From Bacteriovorax sp. BAL6_X (GTDB lineage Bacteria; Bdellovibrionota; Bacteriovoracia; Bacteriovoracales; Bacteriovoracaceae), in the NCBI RefSeq assembly GCF_000443995.1, contig NZ_AUMC01000010.1, forward strand, positions 124,001 to 188,000: a stretch of DNA of 64,000 bases, given 5' to 3'. The position numbers were made by a program, and so were the translations under genes. The notes under the pieces are model-generated. The model saw only the letters and a list, made by a program, of their open reading frames with translations, did not search any database and was not told the origin of the DNA. Of the stretch, positions 3,916 through 52,145 are shown piece by piece; position 1 is the stretch's first letter, and every line of letters starts with the position of its first letter.

Positions 3916-4317
3916 ATGAAATCAATGATTATTTTTCTAATTGCATTTGTGTCGTTTAATGTTTCAGCTAAAGCAGTATCTAAGAGTCTAACTAGTGAAG
4001 AAACTCAACTGGTAGTTGAGCTTGCTAATAATTATCAAGTTCCTCTTAAAGTAAGTGGGCCTTGTAATAAGGTTGAATTTGATATTATTGATAGTGTTAA
4101 GGGTTTTAACCCTGCTGTATGGTCTCTAAATACTGGCAATATGACTTATCTTTTAGAAGAGAGTGAGGCGACGCCTTTAGTATATCTATTTGATCGTGTA
4201 GAAGTTCCTTCTGTACTAATTAACTCATTTACACAAGTTTCGAGAGCAACGGTTACTGGATCTTCTTGTGGGTTTAATCCTTACAAGTGGACTATCTCAT
4301 TTGATGATTTAGAGTAG
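3916..4317 (+). CDS. Small secreted protein of unknown function
   Basis: The 133-residue product starts with a signal peptide (MKSMIIFLIAFVSFNVSAKA) and is probably periplasmic. ATG 3916 is preceded by AGGGAG at good spacing; the TTG three bases earlier is not needed. The mature part contains two cysteines (GPCNKVEF and GSSCGFNPYKW) that may form a disulphide, and alternating polar/hydrophobic stretches that suggest a small beta-rich fold. The VPLKVSGPC ... SSCGFNPYKW pattern is shared by no family I can name. It has its own likely promoter and sits upstream of the RNA-rich region. Confidence 0.7.
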   Translation: MKSMIIFLIAFVSFNVSAKAVSKSLTSEETQLVVELANNYQVPLKVSGPCNKVEFDIIDSVKGFNPAVWSLNTGNMTYLLEESEATPLVYLFDRVEVPSVLINSFTQVSRATVTGSSCGFNPYKWTISFDDLE

Positions 4318-4345
4318 AAGCTTGTAATTATGCAGGCGAGACTTG

Positions 4346-4416
4346 GTCAGCTTCGGCTTATAAACAGGAGCAATTGGATGCCCCGCCTTCGCTGACAAAC
4401 GTCGCATCCTGCTCCT
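4346..4416 (+). ncRNA. Candidate structured RNA with possible pseudoknot
   Basis: A G+C-rich island lies in the AT-rich gap after the 3916 gene. CAGGAGCA plus GGATGC at 4365-4381 pair with GCATCC plus TGCTCCT at 4404-4416, interrupted only by ATT. Inside the loop, GCTGAC (4391-4396) is complementary to GTCAGC at 4346-4351, which would form a pseudoknot. An AGC-TTCG-GCT tetraloop hairpin overlaps the same upstream segment as an alternative. A bidirectional terminator follows at 4460-4490. Strand and transcription are not shown by the sequence. It could be an sRNA or a 3' UTR element. Confidence 0.4.
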
Positions 4417-4459
4417 AAACTCGAATCGAATTAAAATTCTATATCCAGACAACAATAAT

Positions 4460-4490
4460 AAAAAAGCCCAGGATTAACCTGGGCTTTTTT
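4460..4490. terminator. Bidirectional intrinsic terminator
   Basis: A 13-bp perfect stem (AAAAAAGCCCAGG and its complement) with a 5-base loop reads as a GC stem plus T-run on both strands. It can end transcripts from the 3916 gene on the + strand and from the tRNA-Leu/repeat unit on the - strand. Confidence 0.85.
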
Positions 4491-4495
4491 ATTAT

Positions 4496-4640
4496 GGTGG
4501 CCCGGGCATCTACAGTGCGGCAAAAGCCGAAGGGTTTTGAAGCATTGGAGTTTACTATCTCGTGGAGATTTTACAAGCGTTAGCGCCAGTAAAATCGTAG
4601 ACCTTTATTGTTCGTAAAAATAAATAGTGTAATTTGAGGT
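4496..4640 (-). repeat. tRNA-Leu-linked 145-bp repeat, copy 1
   Basis: This is one of two adjacent copies that are identical by eye. On the - strand each unit ends with GCCCGGGCCACC, the same bases that end the tRNA-Leu gene, CCA included. Between these ends lies about 130 bases of structured sequence. A hairpin GATTTTAC ... GTAAAATC (4567-4596 on +) contains an inner GCG/CGC stem, and a CGGC-AAAA-GCCG hairpin lies near 4518-4529. The layout copies that of the E. coli tyrT repeats, which carry the tRNA 3' end and give rise to a small RNA. A processed RNA is therefore plausible here. Confidence 0.9.
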
Positions 4641-4785
4641 GGTGGCCCGGGCATCTACAGTGCGGCAAAAGCCGAAGGGTTTTGAAGCATTGGAGTTTAC
4701 TATCTCGTGGAGATTTTACAAGCGTTAGCGCCAGTAAAATCGTAGACCTTTATTGTTCGTAAAAATAAATAGTGTAATTTGAGGT
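4641..4785 (-). repeat. tRNA-Leu-linked 145-bp repeat, copy 2
   Basis: The second tandem copy joins directly to the 3' end of the tRNA-Leu gene; the period is exactly 145 bases (4496, 4641, 4786). Its hairpin lies at 4712-4741. On the - strand the order is tRNA, copy 2, copy 1, terminator. A single primary transcript would hold one tRNA and two copies of the spacer RNA. Confidence 0.9.
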
Positions 4786-4870
4786 GGTGGCCCGGGCGAG
4801 ACTTGAACTCGCACAGTATTGCTACCGGCGGATTTTGAATCCGCTGTGTCTACCATTCCACCACCGGGCC
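4785..4870 (-). tRNA. tRNA-Leu (CAA anticodon)
   Basis: The 86-base gene on the - strand has acceptor stem GGCCCGG/CCGGGCC, encoded CCA, a long variable arm as expected for tRNA-Leu, and T arm GCGAG-TTCAAGT-CTCGC. The anticodon stem GCGGA/TCCGC closes the loop TTCAAAA, giving anticodon CAA. The 3' end is repeated twice downstream in the 145-bp units. Confidence 0.95.
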
Positions 4871-5056
4871 ATTGAGAATAGAATAAGTCTATTCATTTCA
4901 GGGAAATCAGTCAATTGTTAAAAGTTATGCACATTTTTTGCAACGCCTTGCATGATTTAAATGAAGTTTATATTACTTTTGTTAACTGAACTTTAGTTTT
5001 CCTTCCCTTGTTTTATGTCGAAAGACTTCTTGAAAAAACTCTACAAAGGAAGAAAT

Positions 5057-42711: not shown

Positions 42712-42814
42712 TTAAAGTACAGATGAATGTGCTTTAAGAAGTCAAAGAGCGAAGCTAGAAATTGGGAAATATTAATTTAGTGAAAGTTTGAATCCCTAGA
42801 TAATTAGGGCCTTT

Positions 42815-42857
42815 TATAAAACAGATATTCGCAAGGGGATTCGTACCCCTGTTACCG
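42815..42857 (-). tRNA. Decayed partial copy of tRNA-Glu 3' half (not functional)
   Basis: By hand count, 38 of 43 bases match the 3' part of the intact tRNA-Glu and its flank at 52060-52102, including the T arm region CAAGGGGATTCG. Similarity fades into the anticodon stem (GTGAAAAG). The 5' half is gone. I read it as an old attachment-site scar at the outer edge of the hot spot. Confidence 0.75.
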
Positions 42858-45883: not shown

Positions 45884-45909
45884 TATAAAACTGGTACTCC
45901 CAAGGGGAT
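45884..45909. repeat. Distal attachment site (att), copy of tRNA-Glu 3' end
   Basis: 26 bases identical to 52060-52085. They contain the tRNA-Glu 3' terminal bases with encoded CCA (TGGTACTCCCAAGGGGAT on the + strand). Similarity stops sharply on both sides. Confidence 0.88.
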
Positions 45910-45989
45910 ATCCAGATACAAAAAATAATTCAATATTAACAAAGGCTTAGGAGTAAAATCAGTCGTTTATCTTTCTTTCCTCTCATCGT

Positions 45990-46019
45990 ATTTCATTTGA
46001 TTTCATGGCATTTCATGTG
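45990..46019. repeat. Three phased 10-bp direct repeats at the island's left end
   Basis: ATTTCATTTG, ATTTCATGGC and ATTTCATGTG follow each other with an exact period of one helical turn. TGACCAGACCAAG follows at 46021, and its core recurs at 51995-52005 beside the integrase end. The setting suggests excisionase or integrase arm sites. Confidence 0.55.
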
Positions 46020-46037
46020 TTGACCAGACCAAGTTAG

Positions 46038-46277
46038 TTAGATCAGTTGTAGAATAGATGCCCATAAGATGAAAATTAGAGAAGCACTAAGTATTATTGC
46101 CCTAATTTGCTTTTTATAAAAGTTTCTTTTCTCCTCAACTCTTTCGAGTGATAGCTTTTCTTTTGCTGATCGAAGCTTATGAGAGAAGTAAAAAAGTATA
46201 AATATAAAGGGGAGTGAGAAAGCCATTTGCATCTCCCATCCTTCTACTGAATATGATTGGAAGGTTTCAAGCCACAT
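46038..46277 (-). CDS. Small membrane protein, two spans
   Basis: The 79-residue product has two hydrophobic segments (AFSLPFIFILFYFSH and IILSASLIFILWASILQL) joined by a charged cytoplasmic or periplasmic helix with EKLSLERVEEKRNFYKK. It is the last gene of the island's - strand operon and begins 10 bases after the 44-residue membrane protein's stop. No family recognised. Pairs of small membrane proteins in such islands are often effectors or their partners. Confidence 0.6.
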   Translation of the reverse strand: MWLETFQSYSVEGWEMQMAFSLPFIFILFYFSHKLRSAKEKLSLERVEEKRNFYKKQIRAIILSASLIFILWASILQLI

Positions 46278-46287
46278 AATTAGCCCT

Positions 46288-46422
46288 TTATTCGAGAATT
46301 TGTCCTAGAAGATATGTTCCTATAATAGGAAGTATAATCAGTACTATTGTCATATAAGCGAGCCAATTATCTTTGAATGACCAGTTGGCGTCATCCCATA
46401 TCCATTTCTTAAAATTTTTCAT
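46288..46422 (-). CDS. 44-residue membrane protein
   Basis: A short gene between two others: ATG 46422 overlaps the stop of the upstream gene (ATGA), and the frame stops at 46288. The product begins MKNFKKWIWDDANWSFKDNW, with several tryptophans, and ends with one membrane span (MTIVLIILPIIGTYLLG). The tight overlap on one side and the 10-base gap on the other support a real, translationally coupled gene. Function unknown. Confidence 0.6.
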   Translation of the reverse strand: MKNFKKWIWDDANWSFKDNWLAYMTIVLIILPIIGTYLLGQILE

Positions 46423-46781
46423 TGGTCTTCCAATATTTCAAAGATAACTTCTCTTGCTCCAGCTGTTTCTATTGCCTCACTAAATATAGCTTCTTCAAAG
46501 CCAAGTAAGCTCTCTCTTAATGAATGTGGATACTTTAGTAATACTTTGGGCTTAAGAATCTTTGATAAAAATGTGTCGCTATAGCTCTTTCTGTAATCGC
46601 TAAATGACTCTTCAAAAAAGTTTAGCAATATATCAAAAGTCTTTATGTCATCATATCGCTTGAAGATTTCATATTGCTGGTTGTTAACGTAGGTATATCG
46701 AGGATAAGCCTTAGATTGATATCCATTGTCGATGCTCAAACTTTCATTTGTTAGTATAACAGTCCATTCATTTAACTTCAT
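46419..46781 (-). CDS. Hypothetical protein of the island operon
   Basis: The 120-residue soluble product has no signal peptide. Aromatic residues are frequent (YPRYTYVNNQQYEIFKRYDD) and the C-terminus is helical and acidic (EAIFSEAIETAGAREVIFEI). It starts 39 bases after the DUF4238-like gene and overlaps the next gene by ATGA, so it is in the same operon. No family recognised. Confidence 0.6.
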   Translation of the reverse strand: MKLNEWTVILTNESLSIDNGYQSKAYPRYTYVNNQQYEIFKRYDDIKTFDILLNFFEESFSDYRKSYSDTFLSKILKPKVLLKYPHSLRESLLGFEEAIFSEAIETAGAREVIFEILEDQ

Positions 46782-46820
46782 AAACCAATTATATCATGCT
46801 TTGGGAGTTTCTCTGATGAA

Positions 46821-47600
46821 TTACTCGTTTCTGAGGATATGTTTTAATTCATATTCAAAATTTAAAATTTCCTTAAATATTCCATCTAACCCACTTTTTG
46901 TTTTATTTAGGTAATCTATAATCTCTTCATCTCTTGCATCTAAGCTGTAGGGGATTATTACTTTATTGTGATCTGATGAGGGGCCAACTGAAAGTTGTGG
47001 GATCAATTCTCTTATTGATAGCAATTGTTCTTTAGTCACTGATTTAGGTGCTACTATTAATGCGTTGGAGGGTGTTATTGGAACAATATTTATTCGTTCA
47101 AATATTGAATTTGAACGCTTGAGTGATGGTATTAGGAATCCAAAGAATCCTATTTCAGGAACGCAGAGAAATTTTGAATTATCAATAGGTAATTCTAAAA
47201 TATTATTCTGTTCAAATCTTTTATATGTAATCAAGTCGATTTCTTCTTCTGACATTCCTATCAGTTGATCCATATAGCTTCTATCAGATTTAAGTAAACT
47301 GATTCGTGCCGTTTGGAAGATAATATACATATGGAGAGCTCGCCATATTTTCCAGTTCGAAGTCTCACCACTTCCAATCAGAGTCGATTTATACATTCCT
47401 AGAGGTGATTCTATATAGTCTCTAAAAAAATGTTCTTCTTCTTTTGTTAAGAGGCTGTCTCTTGAGAAGTAGGTTTTTGATGAATGCTCAACAATCTTGT
47501 TTTCATTGAAGTCATATACTCTAAGTTTTCTTGTGTTTTCGCATTCCCATGGCTTTGTTAATGATCTTGAAAGGTAATGACAATTTTTTGGCTCACTCAT
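46821..47600 (-). CDS. DUF4238-like protein
   Basis: The 259-residue product begins CHYLSRSLTKPWECENTRKL and continues RVYDFNENKI. This is the N-terminal pattern of DUF4238 proteins, which usually start with a His-Tyr-x-Ser/Pro stretch followed by a short beta hairpin. The central part is helical (EEEHFFRDYIESPLG), and VPEIGFFGFLIPSLKR and VPITPSNALIVAP correspond to the later part of that family. DUF4238 members occur often in mobile islands; their function is not known. First gene of the - strand island operon, divergent from the chaperone-type operon. Confidence 0.55.
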   Translation of the reverse strand: MSEPKNCHYLSRSLTKPWECENTRKLRVYDFNENKIVEHSSKTYFSRDSLLTKEEEHFFRDYIESPLGMYKSTLIGSGETSNWKIWRALHMYIIFQTARISLLKSDRSYMDQLIGMSEEEIDLITYKRFEQNNILELPIDNSKFLCVPEIGFFGFLIPSLKRSNSIFERINIVPITPSNALIVAPKSVTKEQLLSIRELIPQLSVGPSSDHNKVIIPYSLDARDEEIIDYLNKTKSGLDGIFKEILNFEYELKHILRNE

Positions 47601-47797
47601 TAAGTACTCTATCTAAATAGTTAGTCATGTTTTTTATTATAGTGAATTTATTTACATAAATGTTGAAATTTGAGAAAATATCTTATGTCTGGTGTAATAT
47701 CAGGTGGTTATGGGTCTGAATTCTGCTTGTCTTATTACCTATAAATATTATAATGTCCGAAAGTGCAATATTGAACCTTTTGGGTCGGAGTGTTAAA

Positions 47798-48292
47798 ATG
47801 AATCCAGAGAAGAATGTCGATTATTTGGCTACAGCTAAAAGTTGGCAAGCTTCCAAGGGGGCAATTTTAATTAGTGACCCAACTTTAATTAATGAAATTA
47901 TAAAGCTATTTAATGAGATATGCGGTTTTGATTTTGAACCTTCTGAGATAGCTTTTTTGCATAGAGGTAAGTCGGGCGTATCAAGTGCCACCTATGAGAA
48001 TGTTGCACGATTTAATATTGGCGGTGGTGAAGAATTATTTGGTATTGCTGCAGAACAATTGAGTTTACATAGAACTATATACTCAACTCATAATGATTGT
48101 CTTCAGCGTGAGGCTTTCGAGATGCCGCTCTGTATGAAGTTATGCGATAAAGATGAGCTTTGTTATTTTAAACTAGTTCTTATTTTTGAATGTAGTAGTA
48201 ATGATTGGGTCAATGACCGTAGTTTGATAGGTTCAGTTGGTATTAGTTTTCACGAAGATACAAAAGGAAACGAGGTTTATTATGAAAAGTAA
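47798..48292 (+). CDS. Unknown protein in toxin position of a TAC-like operon
   Basis: The product is 164 residues from ATG 47798 (GGAG seven bases upstream; an ATG at 47753 has no ribosome site). It is a soluble, mixed alpha/beta protein. FLHRGKSGVSSATYENVARF and NIGGGEELFGIAAEQLSLHR are the most striking stretches. It shows none of the catalytic residues of MqsR or RelE that I could align. Its last 11 bases overlap the start of the MqsA-type antitoxin gene, the arrangement of mqsRA-like pairs in which the toxin comes first. I infer that it is the toxin; the activity is unknown. Confidence 0.6.
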   Translation: MNPEKNVDYLATAKSWQASKGAILISDPTLINEIIKLFNEICGFDFEPSEIAFLHRGKSGVSSATYENVARFNIGGGEELFGIAAEQLSLHRTIYSTHNDCLQREAFEMPLCMKLCDKDELCYFKLVLIFECSSNDWVNDRSLIGSVGISFHEDTKGNEVYYEK

Positions 48293-48884
48293 ATGTTTAG
48301 AATGTCTTTCTATTGATTACGATGTAATTAACTTTGAGTTTGTTTCTGATAAAAAGAAACCAAATGGTGAAGCTATTATTATTAAAGACGCTGAGATGTG
48401 TCGATGTCAGAAATGTGGATCAGAGTGGATGAGTGGGGCGCAGATAAAGGCGCTTAATGAAAAAATTGAAGAATTAAGTTACGAGAGCTTAACACCTGCT
48501 AGAATTGCTGAAATCAGAGAATCTATGCCTTTTAAAACCAAGGCAGATGCTGCAAAATTCTTTTGTTTTAACCATAAGGCTTTTATTAAATGGGAGAAAG
48601 GGTACTCAAGTCCTAATAAGTCTGCCGATTTATTAATGAGACTTGTTGCACGAAGTGAAGAAAACTTTAACTTTGTAAAAGAGTTACATGATAAAGCATT
48701 TAGATTTGATCTCGCTGACTATCATTTCCTTGTGAAGGCTGAAGCCGTGCAGGTTGATGAAATGAATGAGCATACATACGAGAACAATAATGCTACCCGC
48801 TCAAAAGAAGATAAGTCTTATTTATGGATGATTAATCCTACAGATAATACTGCAGATGATTATGCAATGCCAATGGCCGCTTAA
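48282..48884 (+). CDS. MqsA/YgiT-type zinc-finger and HTH antitoxin with long C-terminal tail
   Basis: The product is 200 residues from ATG 48282. The N-terminus has C-x2-C at residues 5 and 8 and a second C-x2-C in CRCQKC near 44-47, a zinc ribbon as in MqsA. SYESLTPARIAEIRESM introduces an HTH of XRE/MqsA type: KTKADAAKFF ... AFIKWEKG matches the MqsA recognition segment with its conserved W/Y-E-K-G. After the HTH the chain goes on for about 70 residues, more than in MqsA, and ends with KSYLWMINPTDN and an unstructured tail. Such tails act as chaperone-addiction regions in toxin-antitoxin-chaperone systems. It probably also represses its own operon. Confidence 0.78.
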   Translation: MKSKCLECLSIDYDVINFEFVSDKKKPNGEAIIIKDAEMCRCQKCGSEWMSGAQIKALNEKIEELSYESLTPARIAEIRESMPFKTKADAAKFFCFNHKAFIKWEKGYSSPNKSADLLMRLVARSEENFNFVKELHDKAFRFDLADYHFLVKAEAVQVDEMNEHTYENNNATRSKEDKSYLWMINPTDNTADDYAMPMAA

Positions 48885-48892
48885 GGTGAGAT

Positions 48893-49372
48893 ATGAGTAA
48901 TAAAATTACAAGTTATAATATGCGCACAGTTAGATTCCCTGACATGATCTGTTCTATTAAAGATCAAGGAAATGACCTTTCTAATTGGGCCCCTGCTTAT
49001 CGTGCTGGTGCAACAATTGATGAAGAAGGAAGAGTTGTAATCTTATTTGGAGTTCAACTTACAAATGTAGTTGGAGAGGATAAGAAGATTGGGAACTCAT
49101 TAGTTCAGGCAGAGTGTAGAGCAGACTTCACTTTAAATGGAGAAGTTCCTCTGGGGCTAACAAAACTTAATGAGATTCCTCTTGTTGCGAATATGATTGC
49201 GTCAATGTTTCCATTTGTAAGAGAGAAGCTTCATGGGATGCTTTATTCAAATATGGTTACTTTTATAATTCCGTCATATAACTTGGTAAATTATGTTCGA
49301 GATGTTGGTCAGAATATTGAAATTACTGATCTGAGAACAAAGCCACTCTTGGATAAGAATGAAGGAAATTAG
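48893..49372 (+). CDS. SecB-like chaperone of the TAC-like operon
   Basis: The 159-residue product starts eight bases after the antitoxin stop. It has the SecB fold order: N-terminal strands (VVILFGVQLTNVVG, LVQAECRADFTLNG) and a helix-plus-strand end, MIASMFPFVREKLHGMLYSN then MVTFIIPSYNLVNYV, which parallels FPYARE ... PVNF in E. coli SecB. Length is normal for SecB. Placement behind an MqsA-like antitoxin points to the SecB-like chaperones of tripartite TA systems. General secretion is less likely. Weak sequence similarity keeps this below certainty. Confidence 0.68.
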   Translation: MSNKITSYNMRTVRFPDMICSIKDQGNDLSNWAPAYRAGATIDEEGRVVILFGVQLTNVVGEDKKIGNSLVQAECRADFTLNGEVPLGLTKLNEIPLVANMIASMFPFVREKLHGMLYSNMVTFIIPSYNLVNYVRDVGQNIEITDLRTKPLLDKNEGN

Positions 49373-50111
49373 TGTAGTTAAAAATTCTTATAAGGTAGTT
49401 ACAAAGGTTTTTAATAAAATTCAAGAAATACGCTTCAATAAATTTATTGATGGCTGTAGAAAATCTTTAGAGTCGGAGGGAATTTTAGACCCTTCTCAGG
49501 AAGTAGAGTTTTTAAGTTGGTTTGAAACTGAATTTTCAAAAAATAAGCTTTTTGATTATGTAAAAAAATCAATTGAAAGTACTTCAGATATTACAAGATT
49601 AGCTCTTTCGAGGCTATTTACACTTAATAATTCTAAACTATTTAATTCTTCTCCATATAGCGAATCTGTCTTATTGCGTGGCTTGGGTGATGTAGATGAT
49701 TTAGAAGTCGAGATGTTTCTAATGATTTTTCTAGTATCCTTAAAAGACACTTCCGAGCATAGTTTAAATATGGATGACTTGAATAATCTTAAAATGAATG
49801 GAGATGATTCAGTTAGAATGTATATTTCCAAAGAAGTATTCAACTTAGAGTCAAACCCTTATTTTAAGAAGTTTGGTAAAGACCCTTTTTCTATGTCTGT
49901 ATTTGTCATTGACTCATTCATTTCTAAAGGATTTTTAAAAAGTTCAAATGTACTTGGAAACTATAGCTCTGGAGTTGGTTTTCAGTTAACAACAATTTCT
50001 CTATTACTTATTGAAAATTTAGCCTGGGCGAATTATGTATTAAACCCAACTTCCGATTTAGCAAGAGAATACATTAGAAATACTGATTTATTTAAGTCTA
50101 AGATGATGTAG
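49359..50111 (+). CDS. Fourth gene of the TAC-like operon, unknown function
   Basis: The 250-residue protein starts at ATG 49359, 14 bases inside the chaperone gene, so it is translationally coupled. It is helical, soluble and without cysteine. FNKFIDGCRKSLES excepted, the chain is polar, with a hydrophobic helix VGFQLTTISLLLIENLAW near the end. MFLMIFLVSL suggests a buried core helix. No catalytic motif is evident. It could be an accessory of the TAC module or a separate effector. It is followed by 370 bases without a gene. Confidence 0.6.
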   Translation: MKEISVVKNSYKVVTKVFNKIQEIRFNKFIDGCRKSLESEGILDPSQEVEFLSWFETEFSKNKLFDYVKKSIESTSDITRLALSRLFTLNNSKLFNSSPYSESVLLRGLGDVDDLEVEMFLMIFLVSLKDTSEHSLNMDDLNNLKMNGDDSVRMYISKEVFNLESNPYFKKFGKDPFSMSVFVIDSFISKGFLKSSNVLGNYSSGVGFQLTTISLLLIENLAWANYVLNPTSDLAREYIRNTDLFKSKMM

Positions 50112-50485
50112 TATATTTTACTATTCTATTGTTCACCGTGAACATTTCACGCCACCTAAATTCCCGCACTTATAAAATAAATAACCACCGTGGTTACAGC
50201 CTATTGATTTATCGAATTTAAGCATTGTATGTAGAAATTTGGCTTTGCGAATGAGCAGCGATTGCATGTCGATTGATATGTGATGTTGTGTTGAATGAAG
50301 AGGATATGATTTTTTTATTCTTCGTTAAGCTATGGGAATAATTCATATAATCCGCGCCGAGAATTTGACTCCCTCTCTCTCTCGTTGCTTTTAGAGATGG
50401 AGTCAATTTCCGGCGCTAACATGGGGGGGGAAGGATGTAGTTCGTAGGTAAGGTTTTTGGAGTTAAGTTGTTAGAAGGAGGGGAG
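50112..50485. other. Intergenic region upstream of the HTH-integrase pair
   Basis: No gene is supported here. It holds a strong inverted repeat at 50354-50416 (separate entry) and a poly-G tract at about 50423-50430. An A/G-rich ribosome-site region follows. Promoters for the HTH and integrase genes should lie here. Confidence 0.5.
50354..50416. repeat. Long imperfect inverted repeat upstream of the HTH-integrase genes
   Basis: GCGCCG, AA and TTGACTCC with TCTC pair in order with GAGA, GGAGTCAA, TT and CGGCGC. A loop of about 16 bases remains, and the mismatches are few. The stem is stable in this AT-rich setting. It could be a regulator site, an RNA hairpin or a recombination site. Confidence 0.65.
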
Positions 50486-50782
50486 TTGAAGAAAAATAGT
50501 TTTGATATACATTGCAAATACTGCTTATCAAGGTATCATGGCCAAGAGATGATATTAGGTGAGGGCATAAGTTTAGATGGCTTATTTGGCCAATCTGGTG
50601 GCGTCTCAGAGCTCTTTAAAAAACGAATATGGCGAGTGGATGATGTGGCAAGATTCCTAGAGTGCACAAAGGGGCATATCTATAATCTTGTATCAGATGA
50701 GAAAATACCAAAGAGAAAGAAAGGTGGACTACTGTTTTTTATTCCTGAGGAAATCCTTGATTGGGTTTACGAAGGAGATTAA
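50486..50782 (+). CDS. HTH protein, probable excisionase or integrase regulator
   Basis: The product is 98 residues from TTG 50486, which directly follows AGGAGGGGAG; a TTG at 50468 would add six residues. N-terminal CKYC and nearby residues may bind metal. The C-terminal half is a MerR-like excisionase-type winged HTH: RIWRVDDVARFLECTKGHIY then KIPKRKKGGLLFFIPEEI. Such proteins bind arm sites and favour excision, or act in regulation. It ends three bases before the integrase gene, so they form one operon. Confidence 0.68.
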   Translation: MKKNSFDIHCKYCLSRYHGQEMILGEGISLDGLFGQSGGVSELFKKRIWRVDDVARFLECTKGHIYNLVSDEKIPKRKKGGLLFFIPEEILDWVYEGD

Positions 50783-50785
50783 AAA

Positions 50786-51988
50786 ATGAGTAAGTATCAA
50801 AAACTTTCAAACTACACAGGAATTAAAAAAGACACGAAGAACGGAAGATATTTAGCTATCAAATATCTAAATGGAAAACAGTATTCGAAGAAATTCGATT
50901 CCTTAAAGCAGGCACTTTTTTGGCGTAATAGTTTTCACCCTGCACTTCCTGCTAAATTATTGGAAGCTAAGTGTGAAGAATTAGGGCCAAGGAAGAAATT
51001 GTTTATTCCAAAGCTGCATGTAAAACCAAACGGCGAAGACTTAGGTTATCGCTTTAGGGATGTGTGGGAGCTGTATAAGGAATTACATTTGCCGTCTTTA
51101 GAAAAGTCATCAATGGAGCATAGGCTTTCTAAGTTAAGTTTTTACAATCCTTTAATGGATTATCTAATGGTTGAAATAAATGCGTCTTTAATAGATCGCT
51201 TTATGTTTGATCATAAAGAAAAGGCCATTAAAGAGAAGAGTAAACGCTATAACTTCAACGATGATCTTAAATGTCTTAAGGCACTACTAAATTGGTACCG
51301 AATTAATTACGATGCAATGTTTATCGTTCCAATTCTTCCAAGGCATAAGCAAGCAGGGCTTATAAAGAAAACTCCAATGAGAAATAAGAAGCTTAAACCA
51401 GAGGAGCTAATTGCTTTCTTTAGTGAGCTTTCTGAATTTTGGAGAGACTTTGCCGAAACCCAATTCTATATGGGGGCAAGAGTAAGTGAAGTTGCAGGCC
51501 TTCAAGCCGAGTGCGTGGATTTAAAAGAAATGGAGATTCGTGTTCAATATGTGTGTATCTGGTCGAACAAAACGAAGAAGTTCGACTATCTAAAAGAGAC
51601 AACTAAGAACGGTGAAATTAGCTACGCCTCAATTAATAAGAGAATTGAGGAAATTATGAGAAGAAGATTGCCACTTAGTCAAAATGGCTTTGTCTTTCAT
51701 AAAGATGGTGAGCCTCTAACTTACAGACAGATTCAGTTTCAATACAATAAGGCCCTAAGAAAAGCAGGACTAGCAGATCGCTTTAGTTCGACTCATATTA
51801 TGAGACATAGTATGGGAACGATCACAAGGCGAGTGACCGGAAGTGTGGATATGGCCCAAGCTGTAACGAGGCACAAGGATATTCAAGTAGCTCAGCAATA
51901 TGCGAGTTTACCGACTGAGGCCAATAAGAAGGCCGTAAATGATGTCTTTGAATATTTAAATGAAATTGAGCTTAAATGTGGTGGTTAG
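50786..51988 (+). CDS. int: Tyrosine recombinase (phage-type integrase)
   Basis: The 400-residue product has the catalytic residues of tyrosine recombinases: Arg232 in GARVSEVAGL, His337 and Arg340 in HIMRHSM, a second His in TRHKDI, and the nucleophile Tyr372 in QQYASL. An N-terminal AP2-like/arm-binding segment (TKNGRYLAIKYLNGKQYSKKF) and a core-binding domain (about 95-200) precede the catalytic domain. It sits next to the tRNA-Glu, whose 3' end is one of its att sites. Appears intact and so able to act. Confidence 0.93.
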   Translation: MSKYQKLSNYTGIKKDTKNGRYLAIKYLNGKQYSKKFDSLKQALFWRNSFHPALPAKLLEAKCEELGPRKKLFIPKLHVKPNGEDLGYRFRDVWELYKELHLPSLEKSSMEHRLSKLSFYNPLMDYLMVEINASLIDRFMFDHKEKAIKEKSKRYNFNDDLKCLKALLNWYRINYDAMFIVPILPRHKQAGLIKKTPMRNKKLKPEELIAFFSELSEFWRDFAETQFYMGARVSEVAGLQAECVDLKEMEIRVQYVCIWSNKTKKFDYLKETTKNGEISYASINKRIEEIMRRRLPLSQNGFVFHKDGEPLTYRQIQFQYNKALRKAGLADRFSSTHIMRHSMGTITRRVTGSVDMAQAVTRHKDIQVAQQYASLPTEANKKAVNDVFEYLNEIELKCGG

Positions 51989-52035
51989 GTGGTCGACCAG
52001 ACCAAAACAGACCAAGTAGGGTCTAGAAAATAAAA

Positions 52036-52060
52036 AAGCCAGACTAGGTCTGGCTTCTTT
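52036..52060. terminator. Intrinsic terminator between integrase and tRNA-Glu
   Basis: AAGCCAGAC pairs with GTCTGGCTT around TAG; CTTT follows on the + strand and AT-rich tails flank both sides. It can end the integrase transcript and, on the other strand, the tRNA transcript. Confidence 0.75.
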
Positions 52061-52085
52061 ATAAAACTGGTACTCCCAAGGGGAT
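52060..52085. repeat. Proximal attachment site (att) in the tRNA-Glu 3' end
   Basis: 26 bases identical to 45884-45909, covering the end of the tRNA-Glu gene, its CCA and eight flanking bases. Confidence 0.88.
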
Positions 52086-52145
52086 TCGAACCCCTGTTAC
52101 CGCCGTGAAAAGGCGGTGTCCTAGACCGGGCTAGACGATGGGAGC
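52068..52145 (-). tRNA. tRNA-Glu (TTC anticodon)
   Basis: On the - strand: acceptor GCTCCCA with 3' TGGGAGT, then A and encoded CCA. The anticodon stem CCGCC/GGCGG closes the loop TTTTCAC, giving TTC. The T arm is AGGGG-TTCGAAT-CCCCT. The first acceptor pair would be G-U. The gene is intact even though the island sits in its 3' end. Confidence 0.95.

Follow-up and report, generated by a model that had tools for sequence, protein, structure and literature searches.

What are the repeats that follow the tRNA-Leu(CAA) gene of Bacteriovorax sp. BAL6_X: a by-product of that gene, the source of a small RNA, or an insert? The window (i.e. the whole stretch of 64,000 nucleotides that was analysed, positions 124,001 to 188,000 of contig NZ_AUMC01000010.1) contains on its minus strand, directly 3' of the tRNA gene at 4785-4870, a perfect tandem repeat with a period of 145 (4495-4639 and 4640-4784; 100% identity, TRF score 606), and an exact repeat of this length is far beyond chance expectation. 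The last 13 nt of the tRNA, GCCCGGGCCACCA, close each unit; the 13-mer TGGTGGCCCGGGC is found at 4495, 4640 and 4785, the copy at 4785 being the true 3' end of the tRNA. The original prediction of two identical 145-bp repeats, each ending in the last bases of the tRNA including CCA, was thus accurate (13-nt copies at 4495 and 4640), as was its period, but the array starts at 4495 and not at 4496, and the third period that it listed contains the tRNA end only and is no unit. The 145-nt unit occurs in 2 copies in the 3.2-Mb genome, both of them in this array.

Outward from the tRNA every unit consists of a spacer S (36 nt), a core (96 nt) in which an outer stem encloses two hairpins, and, as the copy of the tRNA 3' end, R' (13 nt). 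The features are the following:

4785..4870, minus strand: tRNA-Leu(CAA), encoded CCA at 4785-4787 (ARAGORN; Rfam RF00005, 58.6 bits)
4640..4784, minus strand: unit 1 (tRNA-proximal), 145 nt (tandem repeat detection)
4749..4784, minus strand: spacer S of unit 1, 36 nt, AT-rich and poorly conserved (62% identity to relative G001, against 77% for the core)
4653..4748, minus strand: core of unit 1, 96 nt, with outer stem, hairpin A, linker and hairpin B (covariance model R2, 95.5 bits, the model having been built with this sequence; covariation)
4712..4741, minus strand: hairpin A of unit 1, GATTTTAC-TGGC-GC-UAAC-GC-TT-GTAAAATC
4658..4692, minus strand: hairpin B of unit 1, CAATGC-TT-CAAAACCC..GGCTTTTG-CC-GCACTG (covariation)
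4640..4652, minus strand: R' of unit 1, GCCCGGGCCACCA (13-nt match to the tRNA 3' end)
4495..4639, minus strand: unit 2, identical to unit 1
4508..4603, minus strand: core of unit 2 (R2, 95.5 bits)
4567..4596, minus strand: hairpin A of unit 2, as in unit 1
4513..4547, minus strand: hairpin B of unit 2, as in unit 1
4495..4507, minus strand: R' of unit 2 (13-mer copy)
4455..4495, minus strand: intrinsic terminator after the array, 18-pair stem with U-rich tail

A second kind of tRNA-linked folded element lies directly behind the terminator of the array (4309-4425, minus strand), joined to a partial T-arm copy, CAAGTCTCGCC; similar elements are found at Leu(CAA) of G004 and at Asp of G055 (L172, L018).

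One strong hairpin per unit had been predicted and two were found (4712-4741 and 4658-4692 in the tRNA-proximal unit). The apex of hairpin A is conserved as GC-UNAC-GC, within GGCGCTNACGCTT, and hairpin B has the form GC-NN-CAAAA...TTTTG-NN-GC. The evidence for this structure is covariation and not folding energy: the folding of a single unit is not unusual (z = -1.4), and the value of z = -6.7 for tRNA, array and terminator together is not counted as evidence for unit structure, because that segment includes the tRNA and the terminator themselves. In an alignment of 13 sequences, 6 of the 9 pairs of apex and hairpin B show double-sided changes, 13 changes in all, and the covariation score was reached by none of 500 shuffles. 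The arms of hairpin A vary freely between elements, yet their complementarity is 0.91 to the own partner versus 0.37 to swapped ones, and three hairpin A pairs have changed on both sides between the window and G001. Compensatory changes in relatives, for which the original prediction had proposed to look, are therefore present. Among the small ORFs of the unit (24-43 aa) there is no sign of a gene.

Which parts of a unit are kept can be read from arrays whose units have diverged. The units of the G031 array are 59% identical in S, 95% in the core and 100% in R' (P = 8e-8); the corresponding values are 85%, 99% and 100% in G003, and 86%, 99% and 100% for the E. coli tyrT/rtT units. Thus core and copied tRNA end persist, and it is the spacer that changes. 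In some units (L201 of E. coli, L202, L018, L163, L156) the spacer carries an inverted copy of the T-arm of the host tRNA, which lets the outer stem close on the copied tRNA end (in E. coli rtT, for example, GGGGAAGGAT). Such an inverted copy is clearly recognised at E. coli Tyr, G301 Gln and G055 Asp and in part at G118 Pro and G015 Arg; the spacer in the window has none.

The terminator that was predicted behind the second unit is indeed there (4455-4495, 18 pairs); it is the sole strong one on the tRNA strand, a scan of which yielded none between the tRNA and the units. Moreover, the distance from the tRNA end to the core apex is near-fixed in canonical tRNA units (44-58 nt). Given this spacing and the lack of a terminator ahead of the core, canonical units are probably transcribed together with the tRNA. 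This agrees with the proposal that the tRNA transcript reads through units whose core and R' are kept for an RNA function, so that tRNA-processing enzymes would release two RNAs of about 132-145 nt that take their CCA 3' end from R'. The conservation of core and R' but not of S fits this proposal, as do the E. coli ncRNA rttR (171 nt), which is annotated to end exactly at the CCA of the equivalent R', and the RtT RNA, which is reported to be set free from the transcripts of tRNA operons (PMC4986893). However, at four diverged loci (L163, L202, L018, L157) a terminator separates the gene from the core and R' is kept nonetheless, other copies lie behind protein genes or in the opposite orientation, and the wobble pairs show no preference for the tRNA-sense strand (18 G-U vs 31 A-C, P = 0.09). 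Judged from the sequence, release of small RNAs from the units is plausible, and it is compatible with insertion as their origin; as an account of the units we consider this proposal possible but rather doubtful.

The distribution of the core within the genome and among relatives bears directly on the origin of the array. The apex motif GGCGCTNACGCTT occurs 6 times in the 3.2-Mb genome, in all cases behind tRNAs (Leu twice, Met twice, Ser and Gly), against 0 occurrences of the reversed pattern, and of the 31 tRNA loci found, 5 carry a unit or what remains of one, always with the end of the tRNA concerned. An initial search of 97 relatives recovered a 78% match behind tRNA-Leu(CAA) of G001 and a double unit behind tRNA-Pro of G031, the R' of which matches tRNA-Pro. 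The improved covariance model R2 was applied to 129 genomes of the family, which in this genome set coincides with the class, and identified confident members (E <= 5.2e-6) in 14 of them, from 7 genera; at E up to 0.01 the list extends to 24 genomes and 13 genera and includes some chance matches. These models are home-made and their E-values rough; weak matches of about 20-25 bits include chance ones (e.g. L147, L148). The rule that R' copies the end of the unit's own tRNA holds at Leu(CAA), Leu(TAA), Leu(TAG), Pro(TGG), Pro(GGG), Met, Ser(GCT), Gly, Val, Arg and Asp. Members also turned up at tRNA-Gln and tRNA-Asn, in two other families of bacteria from this phylum. The open-licence literature yielded no account of such elements, and we treat the core as a member of an undescribed element family. 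This family is broader than a by-product of tRNA-Leu, being dispersed and present at the ends of protein genes as well.

The number of units varies between 0 and 3 among the relatives, in line with the copy-number variation that had been put forward for checking. The insertion at Leu(CAA) is common to G000 and G001, that at Ser(GCT) to G000 and G005; at Leu(CAA), the unit of G003 is decayed and G004 has another element in its place, and among the relatives no clean empty site was found that corresponds to tRNA-Leu(CAA) of the window. In G015 (L045, L168) three near-identical tRNA-Pro units are accompanied by a further copy 4.5 kb away, which has no tRNA nearby and nevertheless carries a copy of the tRNA-Pro end.

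Tandem units that are identical here, and array-final units that are often truncated, might suggest a purely local event, i.e. a tandem duplication of the tRNA 3' end and its trailer by slippage at the hairpins, with no mobile element involved; local tandem duplication plus deletion would indeed also explain the truncated final units. This explanation is already disfavoured by the shared core: homologous cores follow protein genes and unrelated tRNAs, always combined with the end of the respective gene, single-unit loci exist, and there are empty sites at fabI in relatives (see below). As an account of the array we deem it improbable.

In G121 the last 14 codons of a gene that, from its sequence, we take to be fabI are present twice, the second copy behind the element, and 6 of the 7 base differences between the copies are at third positions, the second C-terminus having diverged synonymously. 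The fabI genes of the congeners G012 and G057 have no insert, i.e. they represent the empty site. The R' of G121 shares GTT and GAT codons with the native ends of both congeners, and an AAG codon with that of G057 also, whereas the in-gene end of G121 lacks those native-end codons. Furthermore, the 46-nt end of an rlmKL-like gene is duplicated up to the stop codon in G012, and in G118 an element of opposite orientation lies between two copies of the 5' part of a tRNA-Gly. Further members directly follow stop codons, among them those of groEL-like genes in G007 and G097; no duplication was detected at these sites.

On balance, we think it probable that the array represents one of the sites occupied by a dispersed family of small elements, which insert at the ends of genes and duplicate these ends, and that the element has here been doubled in tandem. 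A core of about 95-105 nt with an AT-rich spacer would insert directly behind a gene end, mostly that of a tRNA, and leave a partial copy of that end (R') on the far side, such that the host gene remains intact; at tRNA-Leu(CAA) the unit would then have been duplicated, giving tRNA-S-core-R'-S-core-R'-terminator. The core may fold as a single strand, DNA or RNA, and a recombinase whose gene lies elsewhere may recognise it, R' being the putative attachment segment. Where no terminator intervenes at a tRNA locus, co-transcription of the units would be expected, and trimming at the CCA of R' could also yield an RNA end. We count in favour of insertion that the six apex motifs are all behind tRNAs, that R' derives from the own gene at tRNA and protein genes alike, such that target gene ends are directly repeated around the insert, that the hairpins covary, that core and R' are conserved and S is not, that the fabI sites of G012 and G057 are empty, and that R' is kept behind terminators at four loci. 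The unit itself has no gene and hence no integrase of its own, no recombinase was found on it or nearby, and the tyrosine integrase of the window has no relative near the examined element loci, apart from itself. Some insertions are common to several species, so that the element need not be mobile at present. We prefer insertion as the origin and means of spread of the units, while RNA release may occur alongside it and both may hold.

Mobilisation of REP/BIME-type palindromes by the RAYT (Y1) transposases of these genomes was considered as a route, given two hairpins with internal loops, a mostly intergenic location and Y1 genes in 86 of the 129 genomes. Nevertheless, the element flanks none of the 11 Y1 genes (PF01797) that were inspected in 7 genomes, G031 has two units and no listed Y1 gene, and REPs do not, to our knowledge, copy the end of the host gene; we rejected this route as highly improbable. 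The Y1/RAYT-like transposase genes (L084-L094) have inverted flanks of their own, e.g. GTGCCATGCTCCTTTGGTTTCGCA, that are unrelated to the element. A phage or plasmid origin was rejected too, as no similar DNA was found there; the 26 viral pattern matches resemble coding sequence and have no tRNAs nearby.

REP/BIME, ERIC and Rickettsia palindromic elements are short non-coding repeats of palindromic structure, dispersed in the neighbourhood of genes. The element in the window is likewise short, dispersed, palindromic and gene-adjacent, but it copies the end of its host gene, which we know of none of these doing, and no RAYT link was found. With tyrosine-recombinase islands it has in common that the 3' end of a tRNA or other gene is duplicated and the host gene stays intact. 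Such islands, however, carry cargo, whereas the element measures about 100-145 nt and has two conserved hairpins instead, and no integrase. The window also contains an ordinary genomic island, at tRNA-Glu (45884-52145), with an integrase-like ORF beside the tRNA (50786-51988), a 26-bp att copy at 45884-45909 and an older 45-bp copy (89%) at 42813-42857.

Among the closest parallels is the one drawn originally, i.e. to E. coli tyrT. The units of E. coli K-12 measure 178 nt, each ends in 19 nt of tRNA-Tyr, tyrV is followed by three of them, and there is a related unit in the tyrT-tyrV interval. The Rfam model of RtT (RF00391) found all four E. coli units (133-138 bits) and had no match in the window or its relatives, the region 4400-4900 being searched to E up to 10; conversely, R2 had no match on E. 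coli. The elements of the window are thus not RtT by sequence or structure model, and the core sequence differs; they are alike in layout, namely tandem units behind a tRNA that end in its 3' end with CCA, with a folded core, conserved core and R' and a variable spacer. RtT is described as an RNA, the units of the window are a putative source of one, and their family occurs at many tRNAs and protein genes. We tentatively suggest, as a less than probable generalisation, that gene-free mini-elements with single-stranded hairpins that insert at gene ends and supply a replacement gene end form one class that has so far gone unrecognised, of which rtT would be an independent family. The E. coli tyrT/rtT repeats so far stood as a curiosity; the same architecture, with an unrelated core, now recurs at many tRNA and protein genes in another bacterial group, together with empty sites and displacement of gene ends. 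The family provides a covariance model with which further members can be searched, and naturally occurring tRNA trailers that differ in their number of units, so that it has become testable whether tRNA-tail repeats, those of E. coli tyrT included, are mobile elements, RNA genes or both.
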